The notes below the pieces were generated by a model. The model saw only the letters and a list, made by a program, of their open reading frames with translations, made no database searches and was not told the origin of the DNA. This document shows positions 879 through 14,657 of a DNA stretch of 35,949 nt, piece by piece (position 1 is the stretch's first letter; each line of letters starts with the position of its first letter). Source of the stretch: a virus. Location of the stretch: positions 1 through 35,949 of the IMG/VR virus record IMGVR_UViG_3300035704_000016. One strand, written 5' to 3'. The translations under genes and the position numbers were made by a program.

Positions 879-1040
879 CTACAGGCCGCCTTTTTTGAGC
901 CGAGCATCCACAAGGGCGAGTTGGCCCGGGAGACTCTGCGAGGTGTTGAGCTGCTGCTGCTCGATCAGCGAGCGGACGAAGCGCTCGAGATCGGCCTCAG
1001 TTTTGATCCTGCCGATGCCGCCTGCATCACCGGGGGTCAA
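879..1040 (-). CDS. Small hypothetical protein (53 aa), TTG start
   Basis: The frame opens with TTG at 1040, overlapping the TGA of the tail collar gene as TTGA, and ends with TAG at 879-881, nine bases before the next start. The product is MTPGDAGGIGRIKTE followed by an acidic/basic helix (ADLERFVRSLIEQQQ), ending LKKGGL. The 4-base stop/start overlap matches the coupling seen throughout this operon, and without this gene there would be a 170-bp hole. The helix-rich composition resembles small virion or assembly factors, but no function can be given. The start is not ATG and there is no clear Shine-Dalgarno sequence, so translation probably depends on coupling. Confidence 0.55.
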   Translation of the reverse strand: MTPGDAGGIGRIKTEADLERFVRSLIEQQQLNTSQSLPGQLALVDARLKKGGL

Positions 1041-1711
1041 GTCTTCACCATCCAGTTTACGACTTGGTAGGGGGGCATCTGCATTTCATCTTCGCCGCCC
1101 TGCCCGACTGAGCCGGTTCCTCCGACTATCGCGTGGACGTGCCCAAGTGTGTTGAAGTTCGTCGCCGTTCCGCTACCGCCGGGGGCAAGCGTGGTATAGG
1201 CGAAGCCGCTGCCTTCGTGGCGGGTGGCTTCGAAATAGGGCAGCGTATGGGGGTGAGCCGTACTCTCATCGCCCGAGTTGAAAGAGATCGAGTGAGAGTG
1301 TTTGCGTAGCTTCTCCTGGCCGGCCGACTGTCCTCGCGCGTTGCTGGCCGTCAGCCTTCCCGCTGCACCGTCGACCCCGGCCGGAAAACGACCACGCAGG
1401 TCTGGCACATTGAAGGTTGTCGAGCCGTCGCCGGCGCCATAGGCGGTCCCTAGCGCACTGAAAAGCGCAGCGAACGTCGCCCGTGAGACGGCCTGCCCTT
1501 CGCATAGCAGCCAGCCCGAGGGCGCCGCAGAGCGACCGGAGGCCTTGATATCGCCAGGTTCGGCAAGCGCCTGGCGCAACACAGAAGCGAGGTTTTCCGC
1601 CGTGAGGCCGCCGTTGACCTGGGCGACGATCGCATTGAGGTCCGCCATGACGTCAGCAGCGACGGCATCGGTGTGGGCGACCAGCGTTTTCGGAAGGACC
1701 ACGAGACCCAT
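1037..1711 (-). CDS. Phage tail collar domain protein (short fibre)
   Basis: A 224-aa protein with a phage tail-collar domain (the family that also contains microcystin-dependent-type proteins). The signature is at about residues 64-112: PSGWLLCEGQ, then an alanine/phenylalanine helix, then G-T-x-Y-G-x-G-D-G-x-T-T-F-x-V-P-D-L-R-G-R-F. The C-terminus ends QVVNWMVKT, which is typical of the family, where the final strand closes the domain. The first 60 residues are helical and may connect to the tail. In this family the domain sits at the tip of tail fibres or collars and contributes to receptor contact. The gene starts at ATG immediately after the TAG of the nozzle gene (TAGATG), so the two are probably co-translated. 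Confidence 0.85.
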   Translation of the reverse strand: MGLVVLPKTLVAHTDAVAADVMADLNAIVAQVNGGLTAENLASVLRQALAEPGDIKASGRSAAPSGWLLCEGQAVSRATFAALFSALGTAYGAGDGSTTFNVPDLRGRFPAGVDGAAGRLTASNARGQSAGQEKLRKHSHSISFNSGDESTAHPHTLPYFEATRHEGSGFAYTTLAPGGSGTATNFNTLGHVHAIVGGTGSVGQGGEDEMQMPPYQVVNWMVKT

Positions 1712-7562: not shown

Positions 7563-7853
7563 CTAGCCGGGACTGTGTTCCGGATACCGCTGCGGCGGTT
7601 TGAGGCTCTGCCCCATTTTGCCCGGCACGAAGCGTGCGTAGCGCCATTTTTTGCCAACTTCGGCGCCTGCGTAGTAGGCGTGGGCTTCGGTGAGCCCGGT
7701 GAAGGTCACGGCAGTTGCGCCTTCGACGCCTTCTTTCGTCTGGATCGCCGACGTGGTGGGTGGCTTGGCGGTGTTGAGGATCGCGGCGGCATCGTAGACG
7801 CCGATCACGGTCCCAGACGGAAAGACCTCCGGCCTGTCGAGCGTGAATTCCAT
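7563..7853 (-). CDS. Stand-alone adhesin anchor module (96 aa)
   Basis: A 96-aa protein that matches the first 80-90 residues of two large receptor-binding proteins encoded nearby. Compare VFPSGTVIGVY (residues 10-20) with VFPVGTTVKAY in the gene at 9125 and TFPIGTVVGIY in the gene at 10651, and EVGKKWRYARF near residue 65 with EVGGKWRYVAF. The predicted structure is a small beta sandwich. After the module there are only about 20 Pro-rich residues, so this copy has no fibre or enzymatic domain. It may cap the attachment site, be a degenerate paralogue, or act as an adaptor ring subunit. It starts at ATG 7853 and ends with TAG at 7563. Confidence 0.75.
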   Translation of the reverse strand: MEFTLDRPEVFPSGTVIGVYDAAAILNTAKPPTTSAIQTKEGVEGATAVTFTGLTEAHAYYAGAEVGKKWRYARFVPGKMGQSLKPPQRYPEHSPG

Positions 7854-7867
7854 GCCGGAAAAGGTAG

Positions 7868-8035
7868 CTAGACGCGCAGACGGCGTCGGCGGCGAGCGGC
7901 TCGCTTAGAGGCCAGGCGCGGTAGATCCTGCGGGTGCTGGCCGAAGGCCGTCTTGCCGCGCTTCATGGCGGCGAGCGCGGGGCCCTGGCGTGGAGTTCCT
8001 TTGCGGTAAGGCTGCGTGCGGCGGGTTGGACGCAT
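7868..8035 (-). CDS. Small Arg-rich basic protein (55 aa)
   Basis: ATG 8035 follows the TGA of the upstream gene after one base, with AAGGGT as a ribosome site. About a third of residues are Arg or Lys, ending in a run of arginines (KRAARRRRRLRV). There is no acidic cluster, so the calculated charge is very high. Very basic small phage proteins can be nucleic-acid-binding or packaged with DNA; here that is only a possibility. The longer frame reaching 8248 lies inside the neighbouring gene and is rejected. Confidence 0.55.
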   Translation of the reverse strand: MRPTRRTQPYRKGTPRQGPALAAMKRGKTAFGQHPQDLPRLASKRAARRRRRLRV

Positions 8036-8036
8036 C

Positions 8037-9122
8037 TCAGACCCTTGGCGGTAGGTTGCCCGCGGCGATCGCGCTGGGGCGATAGGAGGCGTCGACAACC
8101 TGGAGGTCGGCCCAGGGGATCTGTTCGGCGAGGCCGCCGGCGCCGCTGGGGAATTTCGACCAGATCGCTTCTTTGCCGCCGAATTTGTTTTCCGGTCCCT
8201 TCCAAGGATCGTTCGTCGTGGCCTGGGAGCCAGGAACCGTGTATTCATTGGCGCACTTGATCGAGACGTTGCCGGCGCTGTCGTTCACGTACATCCCGAA
8301 GTCGCGGATCGCCGTGCAGACGGTGCGAATAGCCGAGTCGGCGATTTTGCTCAGGTCGTAGGCAGCGGGCAGCCGGAAGCACATGCCCTGCTGGATCGCT
8401 TCAGCTTCTTCGGAGGCGCCGTCTGCCTTGCTGGCGGGCCAGCGGAAGGTGGGTGCTTTGGCGTTGCCGGCTTTGGGCACCGCCAGGGCGAGCGCGTGGG
8501 GGATGTAGCCGCGCTGCACCTCGGCCGGCAGGATGGCGCCGCCGAGGAAGGGCAATCCCGACGCCGAGGCGCTGAAGTGACGGGACCCTTCGATCCCGGG
8601 CCACGAGGTGTCGTCGAAGAAGCCCACGCTTTTCGCGACGTCCTCGTAGCCGGCACCGGCCTCGCAGTGGAAGCCAGCCTTTTCGAGCCAGCCGGCCGAG
8701 CAGCCTGTGGCCTGACCACCGGAGTGAGGGCCGTCGACCTCGAACTTCGAGAACTTCCACAGCTCCCACATGTCGGCGGTGCCATCGAGATTGCGCCGCA
8801 CGATGACCACGTGGTTGTCGCCGGGGAACGGGCCCGGGGGACGGCACTGCGGCGGGATCGGCACCGCCGCCATGATCGTTTCGAGGTCTTTCCAGTAGGG
8901 ACTCGTGCCGGCCTCTGCTTCGGGCTGGTCGATCCGCACTGAGACGGTCGGCGTCGTTGGCGTCGCGAAGAAGATCGAGACCGAGAACGTCTGGTAGCTG
9001 AAGCCGTAGGTGGCCGCTTTACCCTGGCCGGTCAGCTTCCCGACGAAGGTGGCACTGTCGGGATCAACCCGCGCGCTGGCGGGAAGCCGCTGATTCCAGA
9101 AGCTTGCCGGAGAGAAGAACAT
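8037..9122 (-). CDS. Actinobacterial FWN-family protein in receptor-binding cassette
   Basis: A 361-aa protein beginning MFFSPASFWNQRLPA. It has further blocks that I recall from secreted proteins of Solirubrobacter/Conexibacter-type bacteria: a VSVRIDQP strand, the PIPPQCRP loop, DNHVVIV, a MWELWKF block near residue 118, FLGGAILPAEVQRGYI, HALALAVP, a FRWPASKADG loop near 228, and a late GMYVNDSAG strand. Cys pairs in the middle may be disulfides. Where the family is annotated its function is unclear; cell-wall or polysaccharide association is often assumed. Sited among tail fibre genes, it may bind or process the host surface. It starts at ATG 9122 and has no obvious signal peptide. Confidence 0.65.
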   Translation of the reverse strand: MFFSPASFWNQRLPASARVDPDSATFVGKLTGQGKAATYGFSYQTFSVSIFFATPTTPTVSVRIDQPEAEAGTSPYWKDLETIMAAVPIPPQCRPPGPFPGDNHVVIVRRNLDGTADMWELWKFSKFEVDGPHSGGQATGCSAGWLEKAGFHCEAGAGYEDVAKSVGFFDDTSWPGIEGSRHFSASASGLPFLGGAILPAEVQRGYIPHALALAVPKAGNAKAPTFRWPASKADGASEEAEAIQQGMCFRLPAAYDLSKIADSAIRTVCTAIRDFGMYVNDSAGNVSIKCANEYTVPGSQATTNDPWKGPENKFGGKEAIWSKFPSGAGGLAEQIPWADLQVVDASYRPSAIAAGNLPPRV

Positions 9123-9124
9123 GG

Positions 9125-10642
9125 CTAGTAGGTGAGCAAGTAGGGCGCCTTGGAGGCGACCGGTTCGGTGGGAGGCACGAAGGGAGTCACGGTTTTGAAT
9201 TCGGCCTGAGTTGCCTTTTTGGAGGGGTTGAGATTGAAGGCCCCCATGCAGGTTCCGGTCGCCGATTCGAAGAGGATCGAGACCCAGAGGATCTGCGGTT
9301 CGGTGAGAGTCAAGGCGGCTTCGAAGGCGACCTTTTGGATGGCTTCAGCGGTTCCCTGAGCCGCCCCCGCGGAGACCGCTACCCGTTCGCCAGCCGCGTT
9401 ATAGACGGCGACGATCACTTTGCCGTTGGAGACGGTCCCCACTTGGTAGGTGATGCCGGTGAGTTTGCAGGGGTTGAGGATCTTGACCGGGAGCCAGTAC
9501 TCGACCAGCGCCGTGGGGGCGAAGGAGCCCGAGCCGCTTCCCCAACCGTCGACCGAGAACCTCGAGCCGAGCCCCAGGTTGCCGATCCTCGAGGCCGTGA
9601 CACCTTCCGGCGGGATGCTGAGGGTGTTGCCCGCCTTCGCCAGACCCGTGCCAGCCGTGATCTCGCCAGCACCGGAGAACTGCGTGAATTTGACGGCCGT
9701 CGTGCCGACTGTGAAGCCCGGGGCCTTGGAAGCGAAGGTCCAGCCCGAGCCAGCATTGGTGGTGCCGCTCTCGACGAAGACGAAGGCGCCCTCGAACTCG
9801 GTCGCCTGGTCCATCTCGACCGATCGCGTGAGGATGAAGGGCAGCGCGACGCCGCCGGTCTGCGTGACCACGTAGAGCCCGTTGGCGGCTTCTTCGACCT
9901 GATTCTTGACGAGGATGTGCTGCCCGACTTCCACTCCGTTTTCGGTGTCGAGTTTGAGCGCGCCGTTGGCGGTCCCCGTGATCGTCGCGCCTTTGCCTTC
10001 TGTGCCGTTCACGTAGACACTGAGCGGCAGCGCTTCGGTCGTTGCGAGGGCGGCCGAGGGCTTAGGAGAGAGCCCCTGGATCGCGGCGTTGACGGCGTTG
10101 AGGACCGCTTCGGATGTCGGAGCGTGAGTGTTGTCGGCCGAGAGCGTTGTCAGGAGTGTGCGGATGCTCGGCGTCCCTACCGCGCCGTCGATGTAGGCAC
10201 CGGCGAAGTCGGCGGGGGTGATGAGAGCATTCGCGAGATTGGCGACGAGTTCCGATTCTTCTCCGGCGCCCTTTCCCCGCCACAGCGCGACGTTTTTCCC
10301 AGCCGTCTGCTGGATGTAGAAAGCCCCCAGAGCGAATTCGCCGGGCGCCCCTTCACCAGTCGTCGCCTGTAGGCCTTTGGCGGTCGCTTTTGGACTTGCC
10401 GTCCTGAATGCCACGTAGCGCCATTTTCCGCCTACTTCGGCAACGGCCTCGTATCGAGTTTCTGAGGCGAGACCTTCGAGAGCCAGATTGCCGCTCGCAT
10501 CCACGACGGCTTCTGCGGTAACGGCACCCAGGGGAGCACCTTCGGGGGGCTGGCTCAGCGGCAACGGCCAGTTGGTGCGCAGGTAGGCTTTGACCGTGGT
10601 GCCCACCGGGAAGACCTGCTGGTTGTTGAGTATAAATTTCAC
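9125..10642 (-). CDS. Tail fibre protein with shared anchor module
   Basis: 505 aa in three parts. Residues 1-85 are the anchor module (VFPVGTTVKAY, EVGGKWRYVAF). Residues about 185-325 form the widespread phage-fibre repeat domain: ATTEALPLSVYVNGTEG, GATITGTANGAL, QHILVKNQ, NGLYVVTQ, FVFVESGTTN, GWTF. It ends in the typical AGEITAGTGLAKAGNTLSI-like linker. Residues 365-505 form a C-terminal beta-sandwich likely to bind carbohydrate. The start is GTG 10642 with AGGAG five bases upstream. The protein probably trimerises and recognises a cell-surface sugar. Its TAG lies two bases before the next ATG. Confidence 0.8.
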   Translation of the reverse strand: MKFILNNQQVFPVGTTVKAYLRTNWPLPLSQPPEGAPLGAVTAEAVVDASGNLALEGLASETRYEAVAEVGGKWRYVAFRTASPKATAKGLQATTGEGAPGEFALGAFYIQQTAGKNVALWRGKGAGEESELVANLANALITPADFAGAYIDGAVGTPSIRTLLTTLSADNTHAPTSEAVLNAVNAAIQGLSPKPSAALATTEALPLSVYVNGTEGKGATITGTANGALKLDTENGVEVGQHILVKNQVEEAANGLYVVTQTGGVALPFILTRSVEMDQATEFEGAFVFVESGTTNAGSGWTFASKAPGFTVGTTAVKFTQFSGAGEITAGTGLAKAGNTLSIPPEGVTASRIGNLGLGSRFSVDGWGSGSGSFAPTALVEYWLPVKILNPCKLTGITYQVGTVSNGKVIVAVYNAAGERVAVSAGAAQGTAEAIQKVAFEAALTLTEPQILWVSILFESATGTCMGAFNLNPSKKATQAEFKTVTPFVPPTEPVASKAPYLLTY

Positions 10643-10650
10643 GACTTCTC

Positions 10651-12750
10651 CTAAGTTTCAATGTTACCTGTCACAACGTTTTCTGCGCCTACGGTGACAA
10701 CCTGCCCGGTAACGTTGTTGTTGGCTGTGTTTGCGGTGATGATGTTTTTATTTGAAGCTTCTATTGCTCGAACACCATACGCTTGAGTTCGTTCCCCACC
10801 GGCGCGAGTATCCGAGAATTCACACCCAACGATCCTTACGTAAGTTGCACTCTTGAGTTGACACCCATAACCAGTCGTACTCTTACCGTTGTCAAGACTT
10901 ATGCAACCAGTCATTGACGACCGAAAGGCAAAGGCGACCCCCGCTTCAGGGCTCTGCCAATTAAACCCGTGCCGTCCGTTTTCAAAGGCAAAGCAATTGC
11001 TTAGAGCTAGCCGGGGGCATTCAAGCAGCCATCCATCCGTTATGTTTTTCACAGCAGTAACGTTACTGAAGGAAACCGCCTTCGTCTTGACCGTGGCAGA
11101 AACGGCCGTCACAGTAATTCCAAAGGTGTTGTTTTCACTGAAACCGTCGGCAACCGCGACTTGCTCGTTGTTTGTAGAACCAGCCTGCCGAATAACAAGC
11201 CCCTGCGATCCGGCGTTATTACGAGCCGTCCAATTTGTGATTGAACACTGAAAAGCGAAGGCGAAACGGATAGAAGGCGCGGCGGGAGTGTCACGGGCCG
11301 TGGCCTGATCGACATGTACATGGCTTGCATGAATCCGGTGAGCCTGCGCTTTATTCGGGGACGCTTCTCCACTATTGACATTTGATAGTTGACCAACACA
11401 AAACCCGCCGAAGCGCGTATCGGATGAAATCAAGCCGCGCACGTCGACCTCCCGAGCCCCAGCACGAATCACCACCCCGTACCCGGCGTCACCCCATAGT
11501 TCAGTTTCTTCACCTTCGGTCAAGAATTTGGACTGCCACCCCGCGCCCTTCACAATGACGTTTGAGATAGCCCCATGAGTGGTAGGCAGCGGTTCGGCTC
11601 CAGTCCGCACGCCATTTTCGATCGCGGCCTGGTCCCCCGACACCTCAATTGCACTAAGGGGGATATTACGACAGACAATCGAGTCAATAACAAAACCGTC
11701 GACACCATAGAGTTCAATTCCGCAGCCACGACGTGCATCGGTCGCCGCAGACACCGATTGACCGTCAAGGATGAGATTGCAGATTCCGATATTTACATCG
11801 CCTTCACCCGCTTTAACCGTCGCGCGAAAGTTGCGGATTAGAGTGAACGATTGATTCGCTGCCGTTAGTACGGTGCCTGTGCCCGTAAGCGTTACGTTCG
11901 AGAAAACCACGAGTGATTTAGTCAAAACATAAGTTTTGGATCCGAAAATCACCGTGCCGCCCCCAGCAGTATTAGCGGCATTAATCGCATCCTGGGGAGT
12001 TTTGAAACCATCTACTAGGAAAAAGGGAGATTCACCCTTGTCGCCGGCGCGACTAAAGTCGACGTTGAGCAGGTCTTCGGCCGCGAACGTCCCAGTCTTG
12101 ACGAGGCATTCAACCGGGTAGCGCACCGCCGTCCCTACGACGGTGCCGGCGCCGGTGATGCGAAAGATCGCGACGACCGCGGGGTTGCCGACCTTGCGCA
12201 GAGAGAGGAAGCCTTTAGTCGAGTTGGTCGAGTCGTCGAAAGAAAGCAGGAAGGCGACGTTGGGCGCTCCGTCGGCATCGGTGTTGTTGATCGTGATGGT
12301 CGTCGCTTCTTCGATCAACGCCGGTTTTTTGTTGAGCTTGAGGTGCTGAGCGCCGGAGACCGTTTCTTCGGTGTTGATTTCGTAGAGGTAATGCAGGCCG
12401 GATGCGCGACCTTCGGGCCCGGTCGCCCCGGTGTCACCTTTTTCACCTTTTTCGCCCATGGGGCCGGCGCCGCCCTCTTTACCGGGAGGCCCGATGTTGG
12501 GGTTTGGTTTCGGCGTCGCATAGCGCGAGACGATCCAGGCTTCACCCTGCTGAGCGGCGAGCACATAGGTGCTGCCGTCCTGGGCGAGTTCACCGAGGTT
12601 GAGTGAGCCGTCTTCGGCGACGACCGCTTCGCCGATGCGATCGCCGACCGGTGTCGGGTTACCTGAGTCGAAGAGGGCATCGCGGTAGATGCCGACCACA
12701 GTGCCGATCGGGAAGGTCTCCATTACATTCGGAAGGATCACGTCGCTCAT
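10651..12750 (-). CDS. Tailspike: anchor module, collagen-like stalk, beta-helix
   Basis: 699 aa. Residues 1-80 are the anchor module (TFPIGTVVGIY). Residues 88-118 are Gly-x-y repeats (GPPGKEGG, GEKGEKGDTGATGPEGR), a collagen-like trimeric stalk. Residues 120-225 form a linker domain. From about 240 there is a right-handed parallel beta-helix of the pectate-lyase type: FKTPQDAINAANTAGGG, YVLTKSLVVFSNVTL, then asparagine-rich coils to the end. Such proteins are often capsule or exopolysaccharide depolymerases, but no active site is identifiable by eye. DNA for the beta-helix part is much less GC-rich than the first third, suggesting acquisition by exchange. The start overlaps the portal stop as ATGA. 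Confidence 0.85.
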   Translation of the reverse strand: MSDVILPNVMETFPIGTVVGIYRDALFDSGNPTPVGDRIGEAVVAEDGSLNLGELAQDGSTYVLAAQQGEAWIVSRYATPKPNPNIGPPGKEGGAGPMGEKGEKGDTGATGPEGRASGLHYLYEINTEETVSGAQHLKLNKKPALIEEATTITINNTDADGAPNVAFLLSFDDSTNSTKGFLSLRKVGNPAVVAIFRITGAGTVVGTAVRYPVECLVKTGTFAAEDLLNVDFSRAGDKGESPFFLVDGFKTPQDAINAANTAGGGTVIFGSKTYVLTKSLVVFSNVTLTGTGTVLTAANQSFTLIRNFRATVKAGEGDVNIGICNLILDGQSVSAATDARRGCGIELYGVDGFVIDSIVCRNIPLSAIEVSGDQAAIENGVRTGAEPLPTTHGAISNVIVKGAGWQSKFLTEGEETELWGDAGYGVVIRAGAREVDVRGLISSDTRFGGFCVGQLSNVNSGEASPNKAQAHRIHASHVHVDQATARDTPAAPSIRFAFAFQCSITNWTARNNAGSQGLVIRQAGSTNNEQVAVADGFSENNTFGITVTAVSATVKTKAVSFSNVTAVKNITDGWLLECPRLALSNCFAFENGRHGFNWQSPEAGVAFAFRSSMTGCISLDNGKSTTGYGCQLKSATYVRIVGCEFSDTRAGGERTQAYGVRAIEASNKNIITANTANNNVTGQVVTVGAENVVTGNIET

Positions 12751-14657
12751 TTTTCACTCCCGGCGGATTCGTGCTCGCCTTCAGCGGGCGGCGCTGGGGG
12801 CTGAGGCTCGCCGGAGGGCGCGGCATTGGGGTTGCCACCGTCCAGCGGTGGGCCGCCGGCGGAGGTGAGGGCCCTGACGAGCTGCTCCTTTGGTACCCCT
12901 TCCTGGGCGAGCCGGTCGAGGGTCGCCGCCGGCACCATCGGTTCGGGTGGCGCAAGCCAGTCCTGTGGGTGGTCGACGCCCATTTTGCCCACCGACCACT
13001 CGACGAGCTTGTGCTGGTCGACCGCCGGGTTCTGCCCGAAGAGAGTCATTGCCATCTGGGCGTCGGCGCGGTTTTGGGGGATGTTTTCGGGCTGGGTGCC
13101 GCCAGAGACGGAGCGGATGTCGAATTCGCCCATCAGCGCCTCGGGCCCCAGTTCGAGCCACGCCCAACGACGATCGGGTTCTCCCGGCTGCGGGCGCGCG
13201 GGGATTCTCACGGTGCGATTGGCGAGGATCCGCTGCTGAGAGAGGCTGACGAACTGCTGGGCGCCGGGGTCGATGACCTCTAGCTCGAGGCGCCGGGTCT
13301 TGTTTTCGATCCGGCGCGAGGCCGCGCTCTGCACGAGCTGCACGCCGGTCGCGGTGTCGCCACCGCCCGAGAGCCCGGCGCCGGCGATGACGTCGCTGAT
13401 GCCGGAGGTGCGGTCGATGTCGGCACCGATGCGGTCCTCCTCCTCGTAGCCCGAGGCGGGGATGTCGCCGACCGGGATCGGGAAGAGCAGCTCGCGCGGA
13501 TCGCCGTTGACCGGGATCGCGTAGCCGGGCCCAAACTGGATGTCCTCGCGATCGACGTGGCCGTCCATGTAAGCGAAGGTGCGCTGGAGCACGAGGTCGG
13601 CGTTGTAGCGGCGCTGCGTGCGCAGAGTGTTGAGCTCTTCCTGGAGCTGCTCGATCGGCTCGATCTCGCCGATGCCGTGGAACTCGTGCGTCACCTCGGT
13701 CGGGCGGAAGACCTGGAACGGCAACTCGCCGTGCCAGTTCGGGTTCGGCCCGGAGGCGACGATTACCTGGCGATCGAGGATCGTGACCACCTGGTCGCCG
13801 TCGTGGAACTCGAGCACCTCGTGGACTGCCTGCTTGCCCGCGGCGCCGGCCGGGGAGACGCCGGCGCCATGAGTTGGATCGCCGGCAGTTTTCCGTTCGT
13901 TCCACACCTCGTCGTACTTCTTGCCGTCGGCGAGGGCGTTGAGCTGATCGTCACTCAGTCCGTCGAGGTTGCGCCACTGCTGGCTTTCGACCATCCGCTT
14001 GACGTAGCGGGTCGAGCGCCAGGTGCGGTGGTAGGCGCCTTCGGCGAAGTCGATATTGGCGCAGAAGGGGTCGACGATGAAGTCAATCGGGTCCACGGCG
14101 TCGGCGTCGGGGTCGTCGAAGATCTCGTGCAGCACTTCGGCCTGCACCATCCCGTTGGGACCCGCCGAGGGGACCATGCTCTTCTGCACCCGGTATTCCT
14201 TTTTCCAGCGCGTCTTCTGGATCCCGGTGCCGTAGATCAAGCCGTCCTTGGCGATCGTCTGGAGCTTCAGCGGGTATTTGATCTGTTCCTGCTGGGCTTC
14301 GATCAGGCCTTTGATTGTCGGCGTGTTGGTTTCCGAGGAGAGCGTGCGCGGGAGCACGGTCATCTCGGGGTTGCTGGCGAGCATTGCCGGCACGATCGTC
14401 TCGACGGTCGAGAAGCACATCGGGATGAACAGCTCAGGCCCAAACTCGCTCTGAGCATCGCGCACGATCGAGTCCTGACCGCGGGGCGAAGACGTCGCCT
14501 GGAGGGTACGGCGGAAGTCCTGATAGTTGCGGTAGAGCGCGTAGAAGTGGTTCGCCCGCTTCATCCAGCGTTTGTGGTACGGCTCCCACTGGCCGAGCTG
14601 CCGGATGATTTTTTCGAGGAGCTGCTTGTCCTCGGGGTTCTGCCGCAGGTCCGCCAA
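12747..14657 (-). CDS. Portal protein
   Basis: 636 aa, with the features of portal proteins of P22-like and related podoviruses: an N-terminal helix (LLEKIIRQLGQWEPYHKRW), the region PELFIPMCFSTVETIVPAMLAS near 78-98, GLIYGTGIQKTRW near 140, a FIVDPFC beta region, the stem-like helical stretch EPIEQLQEELNTLRTQRR near 325, ISDVIAGAGLSGGGDTATG, and a disordered Pro/Gly C-terminus. Portals form the 12-subunit ring through which DNA is packaged and ejected. The annotated start is TTG 14657 and the ribosome site is weak. The stop overlaps the tailspike start. Confidence 0.85.
   Translation of the reverse strand: MADLRQNPEDKQLLEKIIRQLGQWEPYHKRWMKRANHFYALYRNYQDFRRTLQATSSPRGQDSIVRDAQSEFGPELFIPMCFSTVETIVPAMLASNPEMTVLPRTLSSETNTPTIKGLIEAQQEQIKYPLKLQTIAKDGLIYGTGIQKTRWKKEYRVQKSMVPSAGPNGMVQAEVLHEIFDDPDADAVDPIDFIVDPFCANIDFAEGAYHRTWRSTRYVKRMVESQQWRNLDGLSDDQLNALADGKKYDEVWNERKTAGDPTHGAGVSPAGAAGKQAVHEVLEFHDGDQVVTILDRQVIVASGPNPNWHGELPFQVFRPTEVTHEFHGIGEIEPIEQLQEELNTLRTQRRYNADLVLQRTFAYMDGHVDREDIQFGPGYAIPVNGDPRELLFPIPVGDIPASGYEEEDRIGADIDRTSGISDVIAGAGLSGGGDTATGVQLVQSAASRRIENKTRRLELEVIDPGAQQFVSLSQQRILANRTVRIPARPQPGEPDRRWAWLELGPEALMGEFDIRSVSGGTQPENIPQNRADAQMAMTLFGQNPAVDQHKLVEWSVGKMGVDHPQDWLAPPEPMVPAATLDRLAQEGVPKEQLVRALTSAGGPPLDGGNPNAAPSGEPQPPAPPAEGEHESAGSEK

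Follow-up and report, generated by a model that had tools for sequence, protein, structure and literature searches.

The module-headed genes

The analyzed window is a whole IMG/VR virus record (IMGVR_UViG_3300035704_000016; 35,949 bases) and encodes a portal protein of the SU10 type together with a major capsid protein. Three of its open reading frames, here named P1, P2, and P3 (Table 1), had been predicted to share an N-terminal anchor module, and all three were present on the minus strand at the coordinates originally given for them. The motifs on which this prediction relied were found as quoted, with FPSGTVIGVY at residues 11–20 of the 96-aa P1, FPVGTTVKAY at residues 11–20 of the 505-aa P2, and FPIGTVVGIY at residues 13–22 of the 699-aa P3. 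A second motif, EVGxKWRY, is present in two of the products as predicted (EVGKKWRY and EVGGKWRY in P1 and P2), and P3 reads QQGEAWIV in the same place. The description of P1 as little else than a module holds for this short protein. The designation of P2 as a fiber is reasonable because its residues ~150–350 match tail-fiber regions of other phages, and that of P3 as a tailspike is reasonable in view of a collagen-like stretch at residues ~82–119, with a tailspike match that is only weak (phrog_2234, E 0.011).

Table 1. Features of the module-containing region of the window
Feature	Position	Strand	Basis or remarks
P1, stand-alone module, 96 aa	7563..7853	-	module spans residues 1-78, the last ~18 aa being a tail of low confidence; ortholog in L008 at 9617-9910
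55-aa basic protein	7868..8035	-	delimits the cassette downstream; also conserved in the absence of modules
361-aa protein inside the cluster, no module	8037..9122	-	resembles minor tail proteins of Gordonia phages
P2, module and tail-fiber-like C-terminal part, 505 aa	9125..10642	-	tail-fiber matches
P2 N-terminal module, residues 1-80	10403..10642	-	homology, AlphaFold2 model
P3, module, collagen-like linker, and probable beta-helix tailspike body, 699 aa	10651..12750	-	
P3 N-terminal module, residues 1-80	12511..12750	-	homology
SU10-type portal	12747..14657	-	upstream edge of the cassette

Homology and predicted fold of the module

The three modules, each of approximately 80 residues, align as homologues, as had been anticipated. 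Their pairwise Smith-Waterman scores of 96, 76, and 79 (z 12.7, 10.1, and 9.7) clearly exceeded the shuffle maximum of 54–55, and none of the 2000 shuffles per module pair reached any of the three scores. According to tblastn and profile searches, the window record contains exactly three copies.

The original prediction also expected one fold, and this was obtained for the two modules that were folded, those of P1 and P2. The AlphaFold2 models of these modules (pLDDT 84.4 for P1 and 89.6 for P2) contain six strands in the same order, although most alignment rows were common to both models, which hence are not fully independent. Both are predicted to form one FN3/Ig-like beta-sandwich. The best structure matches (VIA; Z 6.5–6.7, rmsd 2.6–2.7 over 66–68 residues) were mostly to FN3, CnaB, and similar domains; since Z stayed under 8, these matches indicate the arrangement of the strands only and no function was read from the fold. 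No phage docking domain stood out among the structure matches listed, and a Foldseek search with the module model against the PDB and BFVD gave no match at E ≤ 0.001. At the sequence level, a weak match to fibronectin (E 0.013) was obtained against PDB profiles. Among 47 module members there was no match to PHROG at E ≤ 0.01 or to the FN3 and Ig families of Pfam at E ≤ 0.1; at E ≤ 0.1, Pfam and NCBIfam each yielded two isolated matches, every one confined to a single member, so that no Pfam family and no convincing NCBIfam family covers the module. A description of the module was not found in the open-licence literature searched.

Distribution among related phages and genomic position

The portal of the window was aligned with one relative, and 60 loci were collected from viral_contigs by means of this alignment. 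A module profile was then iterated over six-frame ORFs and applied to 65 loci, including the window (cut-off iE < 1e-3). This census revealed 75 modules in 42 of the 65 loci, and the 75 matches in 9092 real ORFs compare to 0 in the same ORFs when reversed or shuffled. Several contigs are near-identical (e.g., L024/L025/L028, L053/L059, and L069/L070), so that the loci represent fewer independent genomes than their number suggests. At least one module was present in 22 of the 26 whole records, the other four having none. The start codon lies 3–12 residues ahead of the module in 64 of the 75 census rows, and the remaining 11 are mostly stand-alone proteins with an N-terminal extension. For phylogenetic analysis, 63 of the 75 rows were retained in the tree after exact duplicates and partial modules had been left out, with 47 in the main alignment and 33 in a second one.

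Beyond these loci, tblastn detected no module in isolated phages at E ≤ 1. Scanning was done with the closer module subsets A4 and A5, and a single-protein, module-only scan gave no match. Type C modules (see below) scanned against genome_contigs yielded 23 pattern stretches with no relative among them, and a search of genome_contigs with the portal retrieved two distant Bacillota loci (27% identity) in which the module is absent.

Module genes occur in runs of one to four, mostly between the portal gene and the gene of the small basic protein. Where a locus possessed both markers, modules were located between them in 24 of 36 cases. The other 12 had none there: six of these (L012, L014, L020, L033, L049, and L057) have less than 400 bases between the end of the portal match and the end of the basic ORF, and six (L019, L029, L030, L035, L042, and L047) have a longer stretch that is still free of modules. 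A few modules are located outside this cassette. One of them is P1, which is located just outside the portal-basic interval that contains P3 and P2, as is its ortholog in L008. Away from the cassette, L020 (2764-3606) and L010 (2139-3020) encode module-headed proteins of 280–293 aa upstream of the terminase gene.

Several neighboring genes deserve mention; among the labels used for them and below, nozzle, adaptor, scaffold, and small fiber were assigned by eye and position. The small basic protein belongs to a family (TRRTQPYRKG...PG..L.AML.G....NPMD) found in 39 of the 65 loci, including L008 (9419-9586), and in most relatives its gene adjoins the module cassette or the portal on one side and the probable scaffold region on the other; it may have a role in assembly or packaging. 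Minor tail proteins similar to the second half of the 361-aa protein occur in 69 phage records, without exception from Gordonia phages, which is a weak hint at an actinobacterial host. At 1037-1711 (minus strand), after a nozzle-like gene, the window encodes a fiber with a collar domain (PF07484), which was found in 4 of the 26 whole records searched. A second recurrent fiber N-terminus, I..L..E.DL.R.L...LR, was recognized by eye in L059 (18268-20181), L057 (17670-19187), and L004 (11393-12127), where the genes follow the nozzle and small fiber genes (L059, L057) or a type D gene (L004); it is possibly a second docking signal.

Module types and exchange of C-terminal parts

The modules were sorted by eye into types A–E. 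Type A heads a protein of ~190–230 aa that is encoded beside the portal in most genomes with this type, type B is a stand-alone form, types C and D head fibers, and type E occurs in a different sub-clade as a single gene following the portal. The second part of the type A protein (~112 aa) is conserved, as the six members that are not truncated match one another there in all 15 pairwise comparisons; thus, not every module carries an exchangeable fiber.

A different pattern was observed for types C and D, whose 57 within-type pairs all matched in the module and in just nine cases in the C-terminal part (E ≤ 1e-3; this comparison includes L055, which is cut by the contig end). The clearest case is the pair L054/L069, with modules 82.5% identical and remainders of 664 and 406 residues that lack any match to each other. 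The P2 and P3 modules of the window are 61 and 54% identical, respectively, to their counterparts in L008, the closest relative, and neither of the two C-terminal parts matched. In the five pairs examined, identity falls sharply past residue 80–120, just after the module. Ten module proteins were scanned against Pfam and PHROG: five had pectate-lyase or beta-helix matches (two of these below the Pfam cut-off), one matched collagen and LamG, and four had no match. By these domain matches, the C-terminal parts of several members resemble depolymerases or receptor-binding domains. The proposal that the module would be found fused to other C-terminal domains is thus borne out by related phages, in which it precedes a wide variety of C-terminal parts. 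Judged from the sequences, a module that is kept while the C-terminal part is replaced shows the pattern usually seen in domains that anchor proteins to the virion.

Descent of the modules and stand-alone forms

The relationship among the slots of the cassette was analyzed in five related genomes that have the full A-B-C-D order. Modules in the same slot of different genomes shared 55.6% identity on average (n = 40), compared to 31.6% for different slots within a genome (n = 30). In 77 of 80 comparisons, the module most similar to a given one in another genome occupied the same slot; none of 5000 permutations reached the observed value. Consistently, in the tree each of the three window modules pairs with its own counterpart in L008 (support 98/96, 100/99, and 98/99), the gene order being different; the module tree is based on few columns and contains many unresolved forks. 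Since modules are closer to the same slot in other genomes than to their neighbors, this slot-specific descent argues against one common, contested site, such as the shared virion site proposed in the original prediction, and for distinct partners or positions. It suggests that the modules have distinct addresses or form a hetero-assembly.

The stand-alone copy had been proposed to be a cap, competitor, or adaptor. It is no oddity, as 15 of the 75 census rows are short stand-alone proteins. Type B accounts for 12 rows, 11 of which have a lysine/arginine-rich N-terminal tail, the exception being L050. The near-identical contigs L053 and L059 carry type B only, without any fused copy, which makes a general role as cap or competitor, in contrast to a possible one as adaptor, unlikely and also counts against type B existing merely to serve module-headed fibers. 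In L059, the large fiber-like gene has a different N-terminus and is placed after a small fiber gene. P1 is conserved in L008, yet does not belong to type B by sequence or position, which suggests repeated origins of stand-alone forms. The possibility that the 55-aa basic ORF is a type B basic tail separated by gene fission was rejected because this ORF forms its own family, which is present in module-less L014, L035, L049, and L057 as well as in genomes with type B.

A probable docking system for interchangeable fibers

The module is probably an FN3/Ig-like N-terminal docking domain for interchangeable fibers, with addressed types, in a clade of short-tailed phages with SU10-type portals. It would fix exchangeable fibers and tailspikes to the particle, and its genes make up a cassette beside the portal. 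Whereas the module stays in place, receptor-binding C-terminal parts would be swapped, with the boundary at about residue 80. This boundary is a pattern in the sequences, from which we infer docking, and attachment to the virion, on the tail or the capsid, is likely on these grounds. Where a phage has several copies, these would be of divergent types that differ in their partner or position; because of the slot-specific descent, the set may be understood as an addressed docking system and not as competitors for a single site. The stand-alone modules would then be constant subunits of an assembly, not decoys. A tentative elaboration, which we consider rather doubtful in its full form, is a hetero-oligomeric collar of paralogous FN3-like modules. 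Type A and stand-alone type B would be its constant subunits and offer distinct sockets, the polycationic tail of type B would pin this type to the particle or to DNA, and each swappable fiber would bear the module type matching its socket.

An alternative is that the module docks specifically onto the capsid, its proteins being head fibers or decorations functionally like the phi29 gp8.5 head fibers, which bind at quasi-threefold sites of the capsid. The cassette is surrounded by head genes, with the portal on one side and the probable scaffold gene on the other, the window has its separate collar-type fiber after the nozzle-like gene, and two near-identical records possess the stand-alone module only. 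Furthermore, gp10 of SU10 is described as Ig-like and compared to the epsilon15 minor capsid protein and the base of the phi29 head fiber, with its place left unassigned in the pertinent part of that report (PMC9509320). The position of the cassette and the properties of gp10 make this a serious rival. However, several C-terminal parts are depolymerase-like tailspikes, and the maps of L008 and L043 show, by eye, only a small fiber gene after the nozzle, so that large fibers would have to come mainly from the cassette. By the same criterion, the cassette-less L014, L049, and L057 instead have a candidate fiber gene that comes after the nozzle and small-fiber genes. On balance, docking onto the capsid appears unlikely.

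Less probable still is that the module serves not as an anchor but in adhesion, as an accessory Ig/FN3-like domain with weak affinity for glycans on the cell surface. The predicted fold would fit, and Ig-like decoration domains of phages have been described as mediating host adhesion, some of them via carbohydrates (PMC7602432, in the part concerned with such domains). The position of a promiscuous adhesion domain should vary, whereas the module is extremely N-terminal in the large majority of census rows; moreover, it is slot-specific and remains conserved in proteins whose receptor-side C-terminus has been replaced. Very improbable is a role mainly as an N-terminal trimerization or folding cap without its own virion contact, which would suit the location ahead of collagen-like and beta-helix parts but not the conservation of stand-alone copies that have no fiber, nor the slot-specific divergence, which a generic cap does not need.

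If the docking interpretation is right, the module is a marker for those receptor-binding proteins of uncultured phages that escape recognition by homology because their C-terminal parts vary too much, and could be used to find new fibers and depolymerases in metagenomes. Several paralogous sockets would evolve side by side, and the multi-specificity of one particle would become directly testable.

Comparison with known systems

Docking of fibers by an N-terminal anchor is already known, and by analogy the paralogous, slot-specific set of FN3-like modules would be a variant of this principle. Podophages such as T7, K1-5, G7C, and KP32 have anchor and anchor-branched receptor-binding protein (RBP) systems which, as outlined in the relevant portion of PMC6872550, share with the module a conserved N-terminal part and an exchanged C-terminal receptor-binding or depolymerase part. 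Further points in common are the presence of several RBPs per particle and, in K1-5, of adapter proteins that lack a receptor domain. According to the same account, the RBPs of one such phage differ in their N-terminal parts (anchor, T4gp10-like branch, or short conserved peptide), whereas in the phages analyzed here paralogous copies of a single FN3-like module, of slot-specific types, stand at the start of adjacent genes.

In phi29 gp8.5, a small N-terminal beta domain fixes the fiber to the particle, as stated in the parts of PMC6542822 and PMC7602432 that deal with it, and the module would do likewise. The gp8.5 base consists of two small beta-barrels (~110 residues) encoded by one gene, in contrast to the one FN3/Ig-like module in several paralogous genes found here. 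Accessory Ig-like and FN3 domains of phages have the fold class in common with the module, which differs by its fixed N-terminal position and by the lack of a match to the Pfam Ig/FN3 families. The Kuravirus SU10 shares the families of the portal and the major capsid protein with the window, which by eye also has nozzle-like and adaptor-like genes. The long fibers of SU10 dock on the adaptor, and a portal-adjacent module cassette is not among the features reported for this phage in the corresponding section of PMC9509320.
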